Shown here piece after piece: positions 39,016 to 52,604 of a stretch of 64,000 bases of DNA. A program made the position numbers and the translations under genes. The notes beneath the pieces are model-generated. The model was given only the letters and a program-made list of their open reading frames with translations. It ran no database searches and was not told the origin of the DNA. How positions within the stretch are numbered: position 1 is the stretch's first letter; each line of letters starts with the position of its first letter. The stretch comes from Bacteroidetes bacterium GWB2_32_14. GTDB lineage: Bacteria > Bacteroidota > Bacteroidia > Bacteroidales > UBA12077. The DNA lies in assembly GCA_001768235.1 (NCBI GenBank), contig MENK01000028.1, positions 1-64,000 of the forward strand, in the 5' to 3' direction.

Positions 39016-42000
39016 TTAAAATCCTCTCCCGATAACTACAATATCGTCAACCTGTTCGTAATTACTCATCCATTGAACAATGTAATTTTCAAGTTCTTTA
39101 CCCTGTTCTTTCATTGGAACATGTTGATAGCTTAATATCAGGTCTTTCATATTTTTCTTTCGCAACTTACGTCCATCATCCCCTCCAAACTGATCGGCAT
39201 AACCATCAGAAAAGATATAAAAACTGTCCCCTTTTTCGATTTTTATTTCGTGATTTGTAAATTTTTTATTCTCAATCACATTTGTCATTCCAATTGGAAA
39301 ACGATCAGCTTTAATCTCTTCAAGTTCACCATTTCTTATATGAAACAATGGATTATATGCCCCCGCGTATTCAAGAACTTGTGTATCCCTGTTGTAACAC
39401 ATTAAAGCTAAATCCATACCATCATTAACGACTCGTTCGCCTTTAACATCTTTCTGGTGAAGAGCATTAATGATTTCAATATCAAGGCGATCAAGTATTT
39501 CTGCCGGTTTTAATATGTCGTATTCACGAACAATTTTTGTAAGCATACTGTGCCCCAGAATTGCCAGAAATGCTCCAGGTACCCCGTGCCCGGTACAATC
39601 AACAGCTGCAATCATTTCTTTGTTGCCAACTGTTTCGAGCCAGTAAAAATCTCCACTTACAATATCTTTTGGCCTGTACAAAACAAATGTATTTTCATAA
39701 GGAATTTCCGGAGGTAAAACCGCTGTTTGTATTCGTTTGGCATACCTTATACTATCTGTAATATCCTTATTCTTTTTCTCAATTTCTATACTTTTCTGAA
39801 CAACCTCGGCAGTCCTTTCAGCAACTTTCTCTTCAAGTATTCTTTTTTCTTTTACAAGATTTTGTTCACGAACTTTAATGTACGACATAATTCCAATAAA
39901 ACCCAGAATTATTACAGCTGTAATAAACCACCATGTTTTATAAAACGGGGGCGATATTATAAATGTGTACGTTACAGGCTCTTCATTCCAGACTCCCGAA
40001 CTATTCTTTGCTTTTACTTTAAAAGTATATTTATCTGGGGCTAATGATGAATAATTCACCATGGTTTGATCGGTAACCGGCCTCCATTCCCGATCTGCAG
40101 GATCGAGCATAATCTGGTATTTTACAGCTTCGGGATTAATTAAACAGATGCTATTGTAATCAAAAATTATTGAATTTTCGCGATAACTCAATTTCTGATC
40201 AGGTTTCATCAAACGATCTTTTAAGTTCACCCTTAGCCGTGCAATGTGAGTTAAAGGTTCTTTCGGGGAATCTATTTCCATTTTGGGCTGATATTTTACA
40301 ACTCCTTTTACAGTACCAAACCATAGATTCCCATCACTATCCCTGTAGGTTGCATTTTTCTTTGCTTCAATTCCGGTAAACCCACTTTTTTCTGTATATG
40401 TATGAATATTCCCTTTTGAATCAATTTTATTCATTCCCTGGCTGGTTCCCACATATATATTGTTTTCATTGTCAATATTTAACTGAGTAATTAAATTTGA
40501 CAGTAACCCATCGTTTTGAGTAATGGTTCTTAAAACTTTACTTCCATCAAAAACAAAGATTCCCTTATTGTTTGTTCCAATCCAAATATTACCATCTTTA
40601 TCTTCCACCATACATTCAGGGGTAAGCAGCCCTTCAATGTCAACTTGTTTTATTAAAGTATCCTGAATAAAATTTAGTCCTTCGTTAACTACACCAACCC
40701 AAACTTTATCTTTTGAATCAACATAAACAGAAGAAATTTCGTTTCCACTTAATCCATTAATCTGTGTAAGAATGGTGCTTTTATCATTGTTAATATCATA
40801 ATAAACCAGTCCGTCAATAGTTCCTACCCACAATTGATTTTGCCTGTCAATATCCAAGGCAGTAACTATTAAACTGTGTATATACCTGTTAACAACCATA
40901 TTATAAACAAACCTGCCGGTTGAGAAATCGTACATATTTACACCGTTATCGTTTGTTCCGACCCATAGATTTCCATCTCTGTCATTTTTTAAAAACCGAA
41001 TCTGATTTCCTACAGAGTTCTTTTCCTGATTATAATATGTAAATTTTTTACCTGTATCTTTTGCTGACGGATTATAAACACTAAGTCCTTTATTGGATCC
41101 AAACCAGAAGTTTTTTTGTTTGTCTTCAATAACGGCCCATATTTGTTGGTCGGCCAATCCATCAGAAGTGCTATATGTTATAAACTTTTCCCCTTTAAAT
41201 ACGGCAAGCCCATGTTCGTTTGTTCCAATAAGGATATTTCCTTCAACATCTTCACTTATGCAAAAAACCTTAGGATCGTTAAGTCCATTAATACTATTAA
41301 AGGTTTTATAGGTATCACCTGAAAATTTTGTTACACCTCCGCCCCAGGTTCCCGCCCATATATTTCCTTTACTATCTTCTGTAATTGTACTTATCCAATT
41401 ATTGGCAAGGCCATCACGAGAATCGTAAATAATAAACCTGTTCTCTTTTAAAATATATCTGTATAAACCTCCATGGAATGTTCCAAACCAGATGTCTCCT
41501 TTTTTATCCTGAAGCATTACCGTTGTTGGAAAGTATGATGTTAATCCTTTTGGGAAATAATTTGTAAACGAATTGTCTGACTTGTTATATTTCTTAATAC
41601 CTACATCTGTTACAAAGAAAAGAGTGTCTCCAAAAGCGATTGTGCTGGCTACTACTCTGTCACTTAACCGTTTGCCCTTATATTGTTCGTATGTAAGTTT
41701 TGCCAAATCCAATTCATACGGGTTATCTATTCTTATGAGCCCATCTCCATATGTTGTTACCCACAAATGATTCTCCGAGTCTTCAATAAAACCGGTTACT
41801 TCTCCTTTAATAATAGAACTTAAAGGATGTATGTTAATTTTATCATTTAAAACAAAAGAAATACCTCCCGACTTATGTCCCATCCAAATAGTACCTTTTG
41901 AATCTTTAAACAGAGATTTTACGCCTCCTTCGGCAAGGCCATCCTCAGTAGTATAGTTTATAAAAGTAACTCCATCAAATTTTGTAACACCACTTTCAGT

Positions 42001-42204
42001 TCCAATCCATAAATAACCTTGATTTTCCTGAATTACACTATAAACTTTAGATTGGGCTAATCCTTCTTTTACACTATAATAGTCGAAATAATATGTTTGA
42101 CCTGTAACACTATTCGTGTAAAGAAAAAATACTGTATAAAAAAAAGTTATTCGCTTAATTAAGCGAATAACTTTTTTTATTCTCTGATTATGAACAATAT
42201 CCAT
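39016..42204 (-). CDS. two-component-regulator propeller sensor with SpoIIE phosphatase output
   Basis: Membrane signalling protein of 1062 residues. Residues 1-36 form a signal peptide or anchor. About a dozen propeller repeats follow (pattern GYLWIGTESGVTKFDG; GNIWAGTWGGGVTKF), a periplasmic sensor of two 7-bladed beta-propellers. A Y_Y_Y domain (about 685-745, YTFKVKAKNSSGVWNEEP) precedes one transmembrane helix (about 752-780), then a coiled coil. The C-terminus is a SpoIIE PP2C-type phosphatase: IVSGDFYW, AAVDCTGHGVPGAFLA, with DDIVVIGRGF at the end. The usual histidine-kinase output is replaced by a phosphatase. It is 12 bases downstream of the caspase gene. Confidence 0.88.
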   Translation of the reverse strand: MDIVHNQRIKKVIRLIKRITFFYTVFFLYTNSVTGQTYYFDYYSVKEGLAQSKVYSVIQENQGYLWIGTESGVTKFDGVTFINYTTEDGLAEGGVKSLFKDSKGTIWMGHKSGGISFVLNDKINIHPLSSIIKGEVTGFIEDSENHLWVTTYGDGLIRIDNPYELDLAKLTYEQYKGKRLSDRVVASTIAFGDTLFFVTDVGIKKYNKSDNSFTNYFPKGLTSYFPTTVMLQDKKGDIWFGTFHGGLYRYILKENRFIIYDSRDGLANNWISTITEDSKGNIWAGTWGGGVTKFSGDTYKTFNSINGLNDPKVFCISEDVEGNILIGTNEHGLAVFKGEKFITYSTSDGLADQQIWAVIEDKQKNFWFGSNKGLSVYNPSAKDTGKKFTYYNQEKNSVGNQIRFLKNDRDGNLWVGTNDNGVNMYDFSTGRFVYNMVVNRYIHSLIVTALDIDRQNQLWVGTIDGLVYYDINNDKSTILTQINGLSGNEISSVYVDSKDKVWVGVVNEGLNFIQDTLIKQVDIEGLLTPECMVEDKDGNIWIGTNNKGIFVFDGSKVLRTITQNDGLLSNLITQLNIDNENNIYVGTSQGMNKIDSKGNIHTYTEKSGFTGIEAKKNATYRDSDGNLWFGTVKGVVKYQPKMEIDSPKEPLTHIARLRVNLKDRLMKPDQKLSYRENSIIFDYNSICLINPEAVKYQIMLDPADREWRPVTDQTMVNYSSLAPDKYTFKVKAKNSSGVWNEEPVTYTFIISPPFYKTWWFITAVIILGFIGIMSYIKVREQNLVKEKRILEEKVAERTAEVVQKSIEIEKKNKDITDSIRYAKRIQTAVLPPEIPYENTFVLYRPKDIVSGDFYWLETVGNKEMIAAVDCTGHGVPGAFLAILGHSMLTKIVREYDILKPAEILDRLDIEIINALHQKDVKGERVVNDGMDLALMCYNRDTQVLEYAGAYNPLFHIRNGELEEIKADRFPIGMTNVIENKKFTNHEIKIEKGDSFYIFSDGYADQFGGDDGRKLRKKNMKDLILSYQHVPMKEQGKELENYIVQWMSNYEQVDDIVVIGRGF

Positions 42205-42216
42205 ATTGCGAGTTTT

Positions 42217-44580
42217 TTATTTGTCTTTTGATATAAAGAAGAATGTACCTCCTTCATCAGCTAACCCGTCAATCTTACCAAATTGTGGTTTTTGAGTTCC
42301 ACTTTTTGCAACTGCCACGGTTACTTTTGAAACAATATTTTCAATGGGTAAACAAGCATTTGGGTTATTCATCAATGAATTTGCAAATGTTCTTGTAAAT
42401 TGTGAATTGTCAACAGCTAATTCATATCCTGCAGAAGAAAATACCTGAGATGATTTAAATTTTGTAGCTTCCCAATCGCCGCAATCTCTTTCATTTAAAG
42501 CCGATCGCATAGCCTGGTAAAAAGTAGGCCCTGATTCACAGGCATCAGTGATAACCAAAGTATGAGTTACAAATTGTGAATACGACTGTAATGCTGCTTT
42601 TAATGAGTTGATATTAAAATAGGTGAATTCATCATCACGTTTAGCATCAGTTGGAACCCAGTAGCCAGTTTCATTAATAAACTTCCCATGACCAGCATAC
42701 CAAACTAAAAGCGAATTAACCTGGTTGCTTCTAACCAAATCACGTAATTCAATAGAGAAAAATTTCTCCATTTGTTCTTTAGTCATATTCTGTTTATGAA
42801 CAATGTTATGTACTTTATAGTTTGCTAAAGCAGCTTTCATCATGCTAACATCTTTTACGGGACCATCAAGACTGGCAAATGTTTCATAATTTGAATTTTC
42901 AATAAATATAACCCAGGTTTTGCCCATTGGATTTTCCTGCGAAATTTCCAGTGCTTCGCGGTTGATTTTAAATTCCTGGGTCGTTATATTTCCATAAATA
43001 TCTTCTGCGGTAACAACAAATTTATTTTTATTAGCTATATCAATAGTTGCAAAAAACTCGGGGTTTTTAGTATCAACTGAATAACTAGCATTCATATCTT
43101 CAACAGAAATCGCTTTAATTAAATTTTCATCAGCAATACGTCCTTCAACATAAAGTTTACGATTGTCAACCGACATGTAGATTTCCCCGGATGTTGAAGC
43201 AAACGGGGCAATTAATGTAATTTGAGGAGGATTGATTTCAGTTCTGTTTAACGTGTAAGTTGTTGCTAAAACATTATTGTAAACATCGGCAACAGCAACA
43301 GATATCATTTCTTTTCCTGTAACATCAACTATTATTTCAAATTCGTTTTCAGCGGCACCTTCAATAAATTTTACATCTGCACCTTCAACTTTTGCATACT
43401 GAATCTTGCTTGCGTCTTTAATTATTCCTTTTAATGTTGCAGTAGTTGCATTTTCAATTACATTGATTATGTTCCCATCGCGTTGCAATGGTTGTGTAAA
43501 AACCAGGTTTGGCTTATTGCTTTCCCTGTTAAGTTCATATAATCTATTATTTACAACTTCTAAGCGTTCTTTTGCTTCTGCGCTGTTATCATCTGTTAAT
43601 GATGAATACATTTTATAATCAGCAATGGCTTTTTCATATTGGGTAATTTCTTCGAATGATTTCGCCCTGTTAAAATAGGCTACTGCATTTTTTGAATTTA
43701 GTGAAATAACTTTACTAAAATCATTAATTGCGTCCTGATGCTTATTAAACTCCTGTGAATATAAGCCCCGGGTAAAAAATACTTTTTCATCAGATGGCGA
43801 AAAGATTATAATTTTTGATAAATCGTCAATAGCTTTTGTATAATCAATTTTCTCACGGTAAACATTGCTTCGAATCCATAGTGCTTCTTTACTTTTCTGA
43901 TCAATTGCCAGAGCTTTATTGCAGGTTGAAAGTGACTCGTCATACTTTTTGGCTTTTAATAAAACATCGGCCAGAGAGATATATGCTTCAAGAACGGTTG
44001 GTGATTTTTCAATAGATTTCTTGAAAAATGTTTCAGAAACATTGTAATTACCCAGTTTATCGTTAATATAACCGTGCCAGTAAAAATTCCTGGCATCTTG
44101 TTCTAATGCAAGTACAGCATCACTTTCTTTAAGCGCTTTATCATATTCTTTTAACTCGATATAAGAATCTCTCTTTAATTTAAATGCCTTGATGTGTTTT
44201 TTATCCAGGGTTGTTGCTTTTGAAAGCATTGATATGGCTTCGTTGTATTCTTTTAGTTCGAAATACAAACGACCCGAGTTGTAAAAGCATGAAGCGTTTT
44301 TTTCGTCAAATGATGTCGCTCTTTTGTAATCACTTGCAGCTTCTGACAAATTACCTGTTTTTTCGTAGGCCTCTGCTCTCGCAATATATGCATCAGTAAA
44401 TTCAGGTTTCTCTTCAATTTGTTTCGTGTATTGAATAATTGCATCCTGATAATTACCTGAAGCTGCAAAATCTTTACCTGTAGTATAAAGTTTTGGACTA
44501 CATTCTACAAATGAAATCAAAACAATTAACAATGGAGTAAAGATTAATGTTCGTTTAAATTTTAAAGTTCCCATATTCAT
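42217..44580 (-). CDS. TPR-caspase (peptidase C14) lipoprotein-like protein
   Basis: Multidomain protein of 787 residues. A hydrophobic N-terminal segment (FTPLLIVLISFVECSP) is probably an anchor. About nine TPRs follow (residues 30-340, for example AIIQYTKQIEEKPEFTDAYIARAEAYEKTG), then Ig-like beta-sandwich modules (about 360-560). The C-terminal caspase-like domain holds catalytic His631 in VWYAGHGKFI and Cys681 in ITDACESGPTF, 50 residues apart as in metacaspases. The ATG at 44580 was chosen. A TTG frame 20 codons longer would overlap a -7-like TAAATTTGAC (44636-44645). The target is unknown. It is operonic with the SpoIIE sensor. Confidence 0.82.
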   Translation of the reverse strand: MNMGTLKFKRTLIFTPLLIVLISFVECSPKLYTTGKDFAASGNYQDAIIQYTKQIEEKPEFTDAYIARAEAYEKTGNLSEAASDYKRATSFDEKNASCFYNSGRLYFELKEYNEAISMLSKATTLDKKHIKAFKLKRDSYIELKEYDKALKESDAVLALEQDARNFYWHGYINDKLGNYNVSETFFKKSIEKSPTVLEAYISLADVLLKAKKYDESLSTCNKALAIDQKSKEALWIRSNVYREKIDYTKAIDDLSKIIIFSPSDEKVFFTRGLYSQEFNKHQDAINDFSKVISLNSKNAVAYFNRAKSFEEITQYEKAIADYKMYSSLTDDNSAEAKERLEVVNNRLYELNRESNKPNLVFTQPLQRDGNIINVIENATTATLKGIIKDASKIQYAKVEGADVKFIEGAAENEFEIIVDVTGKEMISVAVADVYNNVLATTYTLNRTEINPPQITLIAPFASTSGEIYMSVDNRKLYVEGRIADENLIKAISVEDMNASYSVDTKNPEFFATIDIANKNKFVVTAEDIYGNITTQEFKINREALEISQENPMGKTWVIFIENSNYETFASLDGPVKDVSMMKAALANYKVHNIVHKQNMTKEQMEKFFSIELRDLVRSNQVNSLLVWYAGHGKFINETGYWVPTDAKRDDEFTYFNINSLKAALQSYSQFVTHTLVITDACESGPTFYQAMRSALNERDCGDWEATKFKSSQVFSSAGYELAVDNSQFTRTFANSLMNNPNACLPIENIVSKVTVAVAKSGTQKPQFGKIDGLADEGGTFFFISKDK

Positions 44581-44689
44581 TGATTTTTTAATATTATTCC
44601 TTAGGGTTTCTACTCTTTTTAAATAGATTTTACAAGTCAAATTTACAAAAGCTTTTAACTTTTAAAAAATTTATCTTATTCTGTTTCTT

Positions 44690-45775
44690 TCAATCGACTA
44701 AATATACTTTATTTTTTATTATAATTAACTTACTATTACCAATATATTCTTCATAAAATATATTTTTTTTAATTTGAGGAGCTTGAATTCCTGAGCCGAA
44801 AATTTTATCACCAATAAATACTCTGGCTTCATCCCATAAATTTCGATCAATAAAAAAATTCAAGACTTTTGCCCCGCCTTCAATTATTACTGATTGAATA
44901 TTTCGTTTAATCAATAATAAAAATAACTGATTTGTAAAATCAGAAGAGTAATCTACAAATTCAATACCAACATTTTTTGACAGGTTGTTTCTTATTGAAT
45001 TTCCTTGCAATTTATCTGCAACAACTAACGTTTCGGCTTCATTGTTAAATACAGTGTATTTTGCTGAAAGTTTCAATTCCCGATCCAGGATAATACGAAC
45101 AGGGTTTTTCCCAGTCCAATTTCTTGATGTAAGCTTGGGATTATCATGTATAACCGTATTTGTGCCAACCAAAATTGCATCTTCTTCGGTTCTCCATTTG
45201 TGTACAACGGTTTTTGCCAGTTCGTTGGTTATCCAGGTTGGTTCAATCTCTTTTTTATTTTTTTTATCGATATCGATAAACCCATCCGGTGTTTCAGCCC
45301 ATTTTAAAATAATATAAGGCCGTTTCTTTTCGTGAAAAGTAAAAAATCGTTTATTTAGCTTACGCGATTCGTTTTCTAAAATACCGGTTACTACATTGCA
45401 TCCTGCGTTTTTTAGGATTTCAATCCCTTTACCTGAAACATGTGCAGCTGTATCTATTGAACCAATTACTACATTAGGAATACCTAAACCGGCAATCAGG
45501 TTCGCACAGGGAGGTGTTTTTCCATAATGTGCACAGGGCTCCAGATTCACATATAAAGTGGAATATTTTAATAAATCTTTATTTTTTACAGACTGTATTG
45601 CATTTACTTCAGCATGTGATTCACCCTGTTTTTTATGATATCCTTCTCCAATTATTTTATTGTTATATACTATAACCGATCCAACTATCGGGTTTGGCGA
45701 TGTATTACCAAACCCGTTTTTTGCCAGTTCAAGACACCGTTGCATATATTTTTCGTGCTGCATACAATCGTTCAT
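44690..45775 (-). CDS. ribD: riboflavin biosynthesis protein RibD
   Basis: Bifunctional enzyme: pyrimidine deaminase and reductase of riboflavin synthesis, cytosolic. The N-terminal deaminase (1-150) holds HAEVNAI and NLEPCAHYGKTPPCANLI (zinc ligands). The C-terminal reductase (about 155-361) has RPYIILKWAETPDG and GIEFVDYSSD, with SVIIEGGAKVLNFFID as an NADPH-binding signature. The 361 residues match. Its start codon is only 21 bases from that of prmC on the other strand, so promoter elements must lie within the other gene. Confidence 0.95.
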   Translation of the reverse strand: MNDCMQHEKYMQRCLELAKNGFGNTSPNPIVGSVIVYNNKIIGEGYHKKQGESHAEVNAIQSVKNKDLLKYSTLYVNLEPCAHYGKTPPCANLIAGLGIPNVVIGSIDTAAHVSGKGIEILKNAGCNVVTGILENESRKLNKRFFTFHEKKRPYIILKWAETPDGFIDIDKKNKKEIEPTWITNELAKTVVHKWRTEEDAILVGTNTVIHDNPKLTSRNWTGKNPVRIILDRELKLSAKYTVFNNEAETLVVADKLQGNSIRNNLSKNVGIEFVDYSSDFTNQLFLLLIKRNIQSVIIEGGAKVLNFFIDRNLWDEARVFIGDKIFGSGIQAPQIKKNIFYEEYIGNSKLIIIKNKVYLVD

Positions 45776-51982: not shown

Positions 51983-52002
51983 ATTTACAGCAAAGAAAGA
52001 AT

Positions 52003-52038
52003 AAAAAAATAACCGATTTTTCAATCGGTTATTTTTTT
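52003..52038. terminator. shared terminator of tonB and ruvC
   Basis: A 16-bp perfect stem from seven A plus TAACCGATT, with loop TTTC, and seven T at the other end. It covers the stop codon of the minus-strand ruvC and is bidirectional. Confidence 0.9.
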
Positions 52039-52604
52039 ATTCTTCCAGGATTTTGATTCATAAAATCTTTCCAGCTTTTAAATTCATTTTTACCCACAGG
52101 AGAATTTGTTTGATAAAAATGACACAAGGCTGCGGCGAGGCCATCTGTAGCATCTAAATCGGATGGCAGCTCCTTAATTTTAAGCAAACTTTTAAGTAAT
52201 AAAGCAACCTGTTCTTTTGAAGCATTCCCCCTTCCTGTTATCGACATTTTAATTTTACGCGGTGCATACTCGAATATCGGGAGCGAGCGTGAAAGAGCAG
52301 CTGATATTGCCACCCCCTGGGCCCTGCCTAACTTTAACATGGACTGAACATTCTTGCCGAAAAAAGGAGCTTCAATAGCCAGTTCATCAGGATGGTATTG
52401 ATCAATCAGGCCTGTAACACGTTCGAAAATATGTTTCAACTTAATATAGTGATCGTCGAATTTACGAAGTTCAATAACACCAAGAACAATAAGTGAAACA
52501 TTATTTCCCCGGGCATGAATCAACCCATATCCCATAATCGTTGTACCCGGGTCAATCCCTAAAATGATTCTTTCAACCGGTTTATCAGAATGCGTTAAGC
52601 TCAT
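52029..52604 (-). CDS. ruvC: Holliday junction resolvase RuvC
   Basis: Endonuclease that cuts Holliday junctions within the RuvABC resolvasome. The catalytic acids are in [13 protein letters not shown] (first Asp), [11 protein letters not shown] (Glu), and [13 protein letters not shown] (late Asp), with [15 protein letters not shown] as the DNA-binding helix. The 191 residues match. The ATG at 52604 lies 20 bases inside the end of the upstream S41 gene, so translation is coupled. It is the last gene of the minus-strand unit. Confidence 0.95.

Follow-up and report, generated by a model that had tools for sequence, protein, structure and literature searches.

The window analysed here is a stretch of 64,000 nucleotides (nt), positions 1 to 64,000 of contig MENK01000028.1 of Bacteroidetes bacterium GWB2_32_14, and carries on its minus strand a gene for a caspase-like protease with tetratricopeptide repeats (TPRs), directly followed by a gene for a sensor phosphatase with beta-propeller and SpoIIE domains, whose signal-peptide codons contain a conserved RNA hairpin with a U-tract (Table 1). 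The best reading, to which a probability of about 0.5 is given, is that the two genes are a single operon in which a translation-sensitive attenuator precedes the phosphatase, and that the caspase is part of the input of the sensor.

The coupling of the two genes, which the first-pass annotation had inferred from their adjacency, is strongly supported by comparison with relatives, in which the genes are not rarely adjacent. Loci are designated by L numbers and genomes by G numbers, and no correction for shared ancestry was applied to counts over related genomes. Among 80 named homologous loci, 77 are readable past the caspase stop codon (L148 is without the caspase C-terminus; L157 and L161 extend 22 and 11 nt past the caspase), and a SpoIIE gene lies directly downstream of the caspase in 76 of these. 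The 59 close genomes, the window's own included, comprise 21 with both orthologs and 38 with neither at a 700-bit cut. An order-wide draw of 393 genomes contains 50 that match the caspase query (1e-60), some of them partially (G292 and G358 lack the caspase domain, and G062 and G305 match only within it), and 41 that match the SpoIIE query (1e-180); all 41 are among the 50, and the two genes are adjacent on one strand in 37 of the 41 (38 adjacent rows, two of which come from G378). The caspase and SpoIIE genes of G282 and G404 are on different contigs, in G282 at contig ends. Either ortholog was found only in the window's own genome in a phylum-wide draw of 395 genomes at the thresholds used, suggesting that the pair is largely restricted to the order, while the titles of the 80 named loci include four Flavobacteriales, two Chlorobiota and one Chitinophaga. 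As a candidate third gene of the system, no other gene cluster exceeded 36 of 61 loci, not every cluster having been named. From these sequence comparisons, many uncultured Bacteroidales carry the pair, and its two genes are probably one transcription unit. Short caspase-only matches without TPRs (L118 in G062, L131 in G066 and G378:C106:5884-6606; frames of 264–273 amino acids, aa) adjoin SpoIIE orthologs or form a second caspase in the same run.

The sequence TAnnTTTG, which we take to be the -7 element of Bacteroidota promoters, is found 52–71 nt upstream of the caspase in all 17 same-genus loci, window included, and before the SpoIIE gene in none of the 17, as searched over the 250 nt ahead of the caspase stop and the spacer. 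For the other genera, 55 of the 60 loci were scanned, the ATG nearest the expected length being taken; the 150 nt upstream of the caspase contain the box in 49 of the 55 (6.0 from shuffles), and it occurs near the junction, before SpoIIE, in 9 of the 55 (4.5 from shuffles). Since the box is present upstream of the caspase and rarely before SpoIIE, a single promoter serving both genes is indicated. The first-pass annotation had named a promoter or a terminator between the genes as evidence against their coupling: no such promoter box is seen within the genus, and a terminator-like hairpin is present.

This hairpin and its U-tract are contained in codons 1–25 of the phosphatase gene. The hairpin begins about 28 nt past the ATG and 40 nt past the caspase stop, and the 111 nt surrounding it fold at z=-6.39. 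A stable stem is followed directly by a U-tract, as in an intrinsic terminator, the U-tract being partly confounded by the codons, and the T fraction over the six columns from the stem end is 0.71–1.00. The element was found by reading the sequence and folding; a stock terminator scan gave no report of a hairpin at the junction, perhaps because the stem runs into A/T stretches. The window and 17 same-genus relatives all retain the core stem, with changes only to G-U pairs, and the loops in this genus are of 5 or 8 nt, so the reading frame is kept. A hairpin with a free energy at or below -9 kcal/mol, adjoining a T-tract, occurs at 62 of the 77 junctions (3.5 expected from shuffling), including 45 of the 60 outside the genus (3.2 expected). 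The translated stretch typical of an attenuator is found in 54 of the 62, in which an in-frame ATG precedes the hairpin and the frame is open through the stem; the distance from ATG to hairpin in these 54 is 20–38 nt, with 41 at 26–30 nt. The position of the phosphatase ATG relative to the caspase stop ranges from -4 to +283 nt (in L192, L194, L203 and L211 the script overran the stop, and the stop distances there are inexact by some nt, by about 40 for L194, whose value of -31 is an artefact). As the spacing between ATG and hairpin is steady while that between stop and ATG varies, the hairpin is tied to the start codon and not to the caspase stop.

A hairpin of -10 or better with a U-tract is found at that place in 21 of 65 SpoIIE open reading frames (ORFs) and in 0 of 797 other ORFs of the same loci, and one of -12 or better, the U-tract not being required, in 39 of the 65 and 25 of the 797; this control read 65 of the 77 SpoIIE ORFs, 12 being missed by the ORF rule, and its 797 others include the caspase genes. 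As judged by eye and unscored, the unlinked SpoIIE genes of G059 and G061 have no hairpin in their first codons, nor has the gene of G066, whose neighbour is a caspase without TPRs. A GC-rich hairpin was read by eye at the junction of G062. The possibility of a widespread repeat was rejected, the exact hairpin pattern occurring at one place in the window's own genome, and that of a DNA operator palindrome was likewise rejected, as the loop length is variable and the stem sequence differs among genera. Of 20 same-genus genomes, the window's own among them, 18 have this junction as the best match of a covariance model, the exceptions being G004, which has a contig break at the junction, and G014, which is without both genes. 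Off-junction matches exist, the best in the scan that covered the window being L133:778-828 at 40.9 bits. Strong matches lie at G054:C145:10531-10581 (47.3 bits) and G055:C67:81808-81858 (43.4 bits), neither genome having close orthologs of the pair, and a further match lies at 51994-52048 of the window, where two convergent ORFs end in a palindromic terminator-like hairpin that is matched on both strands (30.4 and 28.3 bits).

Covariation and codon usage both indicate that the hairpin is under selection at the nucleotide level. In 35 sequences in register (alignment A4), two-sided changes occur in 12 of 13 pairs, in 87 cells, a figure reached in 0 of 500 shuffles, and the signal is destroyed by sliding the pair partners. 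A4 is the full 54-row set (A3) minus 15 same-genus sequences and four out of register (L159, L168, L189 and L190), and A3 gives the same picture. Both sets contain only junctions selected for the hairpin, a selection that of itself makes for a high share of paired cells and affects the two-sided changes less. There are two main stem classes, ..TTATTCG../..CGAATAA.. and ..GTCATCAGG../..CCTGATGAC... Among columns with one amino acid only, in the 13 of 17 same-genus sequences that are full length, a single codon is used in 8 of 9 stem columns against 24 of 364 elsewhere, 0.72 being expected for these amino acids.

The upstream gene encodes a predicted C14 caspase-like protease with a His-Cys dyad. 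Pfam matches its ORF to TPRs and, at residues 554-765, to Peptidase_C14 (E=3.6e-16; 60 bits against a cut-off of 21.4), with His629 within YAGHG and Cys679 within DACESG; the residues 631 and 681 of the first-pass annotation are the same two, counted from the in-frame ATG at 44580 and not from that at 44574. In an unselected count of 80 proteins (79 loci and the window), His was read in 75 and Cys in 76. Four gaps are ORF-reading artefacts, both motifs being present in all four on re-reading, and L146 is locally out of frame across YAGHG with its Cys retained, so both residues, whose absence had been named as a possible refutation, are carried by 79 of the 80. They are also invariant in all 58 sequences of alignment A5, which was drawn from loci having the catalytic His. 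The structure model of the caspase domain alone, built with 58 sequences, has a predicted local distance difference test score of 76.3 and a predicted template modelling score of 0.81, and Foldseek matched it to MALT1 and animal caspases (best E 1.4e-9), in agreement with a caspase fold. A model of the whole protein, of low confidence over the caspase domain, has TPR helices that end near residue 348, followed by beta strands at 356-540, the latter probably forming two sandwich domains; a PDB sequence search returned nothing at 0.01. Within the genus, the signal sequence contains a lipobox-like Cys (e.g. LAGC in L015), and L022 and L023 have no Cys at that position. Like the metacaspases and orthocaspases of family C14, the protein combines a His-Cys dyad with TPRs, and the main text of a survey of this family reports N-terminal membrane or signal segments and operon neighbours (PMC3501461); unlike the proteins there, it is paired with a propeller-SpoIIE gene, a combination not seen in that main text, in which 'SpoIIE' has 0 occurrences. 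The window's own genome (G000) contains two further caspase-domain genes (on contigs C17 and C24) and 16 matches to the sensor protein, none of the six placed ones being on those contigs.

The downstream gene, whose 12-base distance from the caspase and domain order agree with the first-pass annotation, encodes a predicted sensor with Pfam matches to Reg_prop (E=3.8e-54) and SpoIIE (residues 864-1058, E=8.3e-19), its signal peptide and transmembrane position being read from the sequence. No histidine-kinase family is among the Pfam matches, as had been stated. SGDFYW, DCTGHG, FSDG and DD are invariant across 16 SpoIIE sequences, and their conserved aspartates, which we take to be metal binders, place the predicted domain among the SpoIIE/PP2C phosphatases. 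RsbW-like and STAS proteins are the usual partners of SpoIIE-type phosphatases, and the genome encodes stand-alone RsbW-like (133 aa frame) and STAS proteins (109–128 aa frames; contigs C8, C4 and C24). The conserved aspartates and these proteins resemble partner switching of the SpoIIE/RsbU type, from which the system differs in its predicted periplasmic propeller input and in the position of the kinase and STAS genes, no match to which lies beside the phosphatase or elsewhere on the window's contig (C28).

Table 1. Features of the caspase-TPR and sensor phosphatase genes in the window
Feature	Position	Strand	Description
TAnnTTTG box (TAAATTTG)	44638..44645	minus	71 nt upstream of caspase ATG
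Caspase-TPR gene	42217..44574	minus	785 aa read from ATG 44574; signal sequence, TPR array, beta-strand region ~356-540, C-terminal caspase domain with His629/Cys679
Spacer, caspase stop to phosphatase ATG	42205..42216	minus	12 nt
Sensor phosphatase gene	39016..42204	minus	1062 aa; signal peptide, Reg_prop beta-propeller array, Y_Y_Y 690-750, transmembrane helix ~755-777, SpoIIE/PP2C phosphatase 864-1058
Phosphatase ORF start ATG	42202..42204	minus	hairpin begins 28 nt 3'
Conserved RNA hairpin and U-tract, with few flanking bases	42130..42182	minus	within phosphatase signal-peptide codons
Core stem GTTATTCGC/GCGAATAAC	42146-42171	minus	8-nt loop, then T8

Under the preferred reading, both genes would be transcribed together from the promoter upstream of the caspase, and the intrinsic-terminator-like hairpin in the signal-peptide codons would limit the entry of RNA polymerase into the phosphatase gene. 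The hairpin would lie just past the reach of the initiating ribosome (about +28); a ribosome elongating from the phosphatase ATG would unfold it, an untranslated transcript would terminate there, and the output of phosphatase would be a fraction of the caspase level, scaling with translation of its own start. Such ribosome-gated termination is suggested by analogy with the pil1 leader of S. gallolyticus and with terminators inside E. coli ORFs. Passages of the pil1 study report mutants that support the opening of a terminator by a ribosome on a leader peptide (PMC3894217), and the E. coli trp and pyrBI leaders are further attenuators in which a translating ribosome can prevent a terminator, pyrBI being mentioned in passages of a second paper (PMC4824070). 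Unlike pil1 and trp, which have a separate short leader-peptide gene, the hairpin here is inside a structural gene, in signal-peptide codons and at a near-fixed distance from the start. According to passages of the E. coli study, terminators are efficient when they lie in the initial 100 bp of a coding region, one having been tested 30 bp after the AUG; a terminator up to about 27 nt from a stop codon is repressed by ribosomes that closely follow the polymerase, and termination is maximal with the stop codon more than about 27 nt away (PMC4824070). The hairpin shares with these terminators and with the ORF-internal 3' ends described in passages of PMC7815308 the position of a terminator-like element near a coding start, whereas those cases are artificial constructs or individual E. 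coli sites and the hairpin here is conserved with covariation in many genomes.

Several observations weigh against this reading. No hairpin of -9 or better was found at 15 of the 77 junctions, and in L186, the sole record not titled a metagenome-assembled genome, it reaches only -3.8. The hairpin of Plebeiobacterium marinum D04 is weak. The finder required a T-tract, and a run of T at 7 of 8 positions, present in 33 of 34 sequences here, also occurs in 88 of 242 other signal-like N-termini, so the U-tract is partly explained by the overlapping hydrophobic codons, which are U-rich anyway. Eight of the 62 hairpins have no preceding in-frame ATG, those of L197, L198, L205 and L212 lie ahead of the ATG and resemble an ordinary intergenic terminator, and in those 5 of the 54 junctions that have several in-frame ATGs the one nearest 28 nt was chosen. 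Of seven paralogous sensor genes, three (L055, L060 and L061) carry a hairpin that reaches at least -9 close to the start, in no case with a U-tract. The two genes are present but unlinked in G059 and G061, where no caspase lies within 1.5 kb upstream of SpoIIE, and L151 and G148 retain the caspase without a SpoIIE gene. No -33 box was matched, at the spacing expected, with the boxes upstream of the caspase in the same-genus loci, and a clade with long spacers (L172, L173, L174, L178 and L183) has TAnnTTTG in the spacer too and may have a second promoter. The absence of kinase and STAS matches from the window's contig likewise counts against this reading. In the long-spacer loci, the ATG is 79-283 nt past the caspase stop and the hairpin is still 26 nt after the SpoIIE ATG.

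The rival that survives best, although it is somewhat unlikely, is that the hairpin is a constant, unregulated partial terminator setting a low ratio of phosphatase to caspase. It draws on the same occurrence, covariation and codon evidence as the attenuator; no regulatory codons or ligand-binding domain were seen, an alternative antiterminator structure not having been searched for, and no Rfam family exceeded its gathering score at 41900-44800 of the window (best 28.1 bits against 90). A plain terminator, however, needs neither translation nor a constant spacing from the start codon, and the spacing of about 28 nt holds even where the ATG is 67-283 nt past the caspase stop. Distinctly less plausible is a post-transcriptional role, in which the hairpin slows translation of the signal peptide or is the processed and protected 3' end of the caspase message: its place just past the initiating ribosome, overlapping the signal peptide, and the confounding of the U-tract with hydrophobic codons would suit such a role, but a strong stem followed by a T-rich run is the usual pattern of a terminator, and anchoring to the phosphatase ATG speaks against a 3' end of the caspase message.

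The caspase and the propeller probably share the periplasm and the SpoIIE domain is probably cytoplasmic, as predicted from the caspase signal sequence and from the propeller preceding the transmembrane helix, the sensor thus spanning the membrane; the two catalytic domains therefore appear to be in different compartments, and the caspase is probably not a substrate of the phosphatase. The first-pass annotation had implied the opposite direction, with phosphatase output controlling the protease in a regulated-proteolysis or cell-fate module. Near-invariant pairing would be in accord with such a module, but the inner membrane is predicted to separate the two catalytic domains, which leaves this direction unsupported and improbable, and no link to cell death was found. 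Of the earlier interpretation, the coupling and the catalytic residues are supported, and the direction and the cell-fate role are not. The caspase is better placed as an input component than as a phosphatase target: it, or its cleavage products, would contribute to the signal read by the propeller, and the phosphatase would most likely target STAS proteins in an RsbW-type partner switch. The full proposal, that a terminator in the signal-peptide codons makes transcription of the phosphatase gene need its own translation in the service of a periplasm-to-cytoplasm pair in which the caspase feeds the propeller-SpoIIE sensor, is offered tentatively, as a possibility short of an even chance.

It is very unlikely that the adjacency results merely from joint inheritance of the whole block. 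RibD is the next upstream gene in 32 of 49 loci and LOG the next downstream gene in 26 of 50 (window and other genera included), and the region is near-completely syntenic within the genus, so adjacency there is weak proof. Nevertheless, the pair is intact in 11 of the 41 loci with both flanks readable where neither RibD nor LOG adjoins it, and in G014, of the same genus, both genes are missing at an otherwise intact site, the LOG and RibD matches being about 10 nt apart; the 41 of 41 co-occurrence, uncorrected for ancestry, also speaks against it. That a constraint on the signal peptide itself (K[IV]IR...RIIFF) yields the palindrome by accident is scarcely credible: the K-[VI]-I-R motif recurs among many of these N-termini, but the codon invariance exceeds what the amino acids need, which makes this hard to hold for the genus, and the second stem class (L185 and L196) keeps KVIR with other codons while the amino acids of its second arm change accordingly (RITF to LMTL). 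At 45635-45775 of the window, RibD and PrmC run divergently, and their 5' ends, taken from the longest ORFs, overlap.

In open-licence papers, no description of a caspase and SpoIIE pair, of a propeller and SpoIIE pair or of a conserved RNA element at such a junction was found, nor any report of a pathway for such bacterial caspases. With the relatives considered, a guess from adjacency becomes a well-supported two-gene system in uncultured Bacteroidales, and its junction hairpin is a covarying terminator-like element hidden in coding sequence across many genera, which opens translation-gated transcription in Bacteroidota to a direct test. If the proposed reading is true, it would constitute a new cis-regulatory design together with a previously undescribed caspase/propeller-SpoIIE signalling pair.

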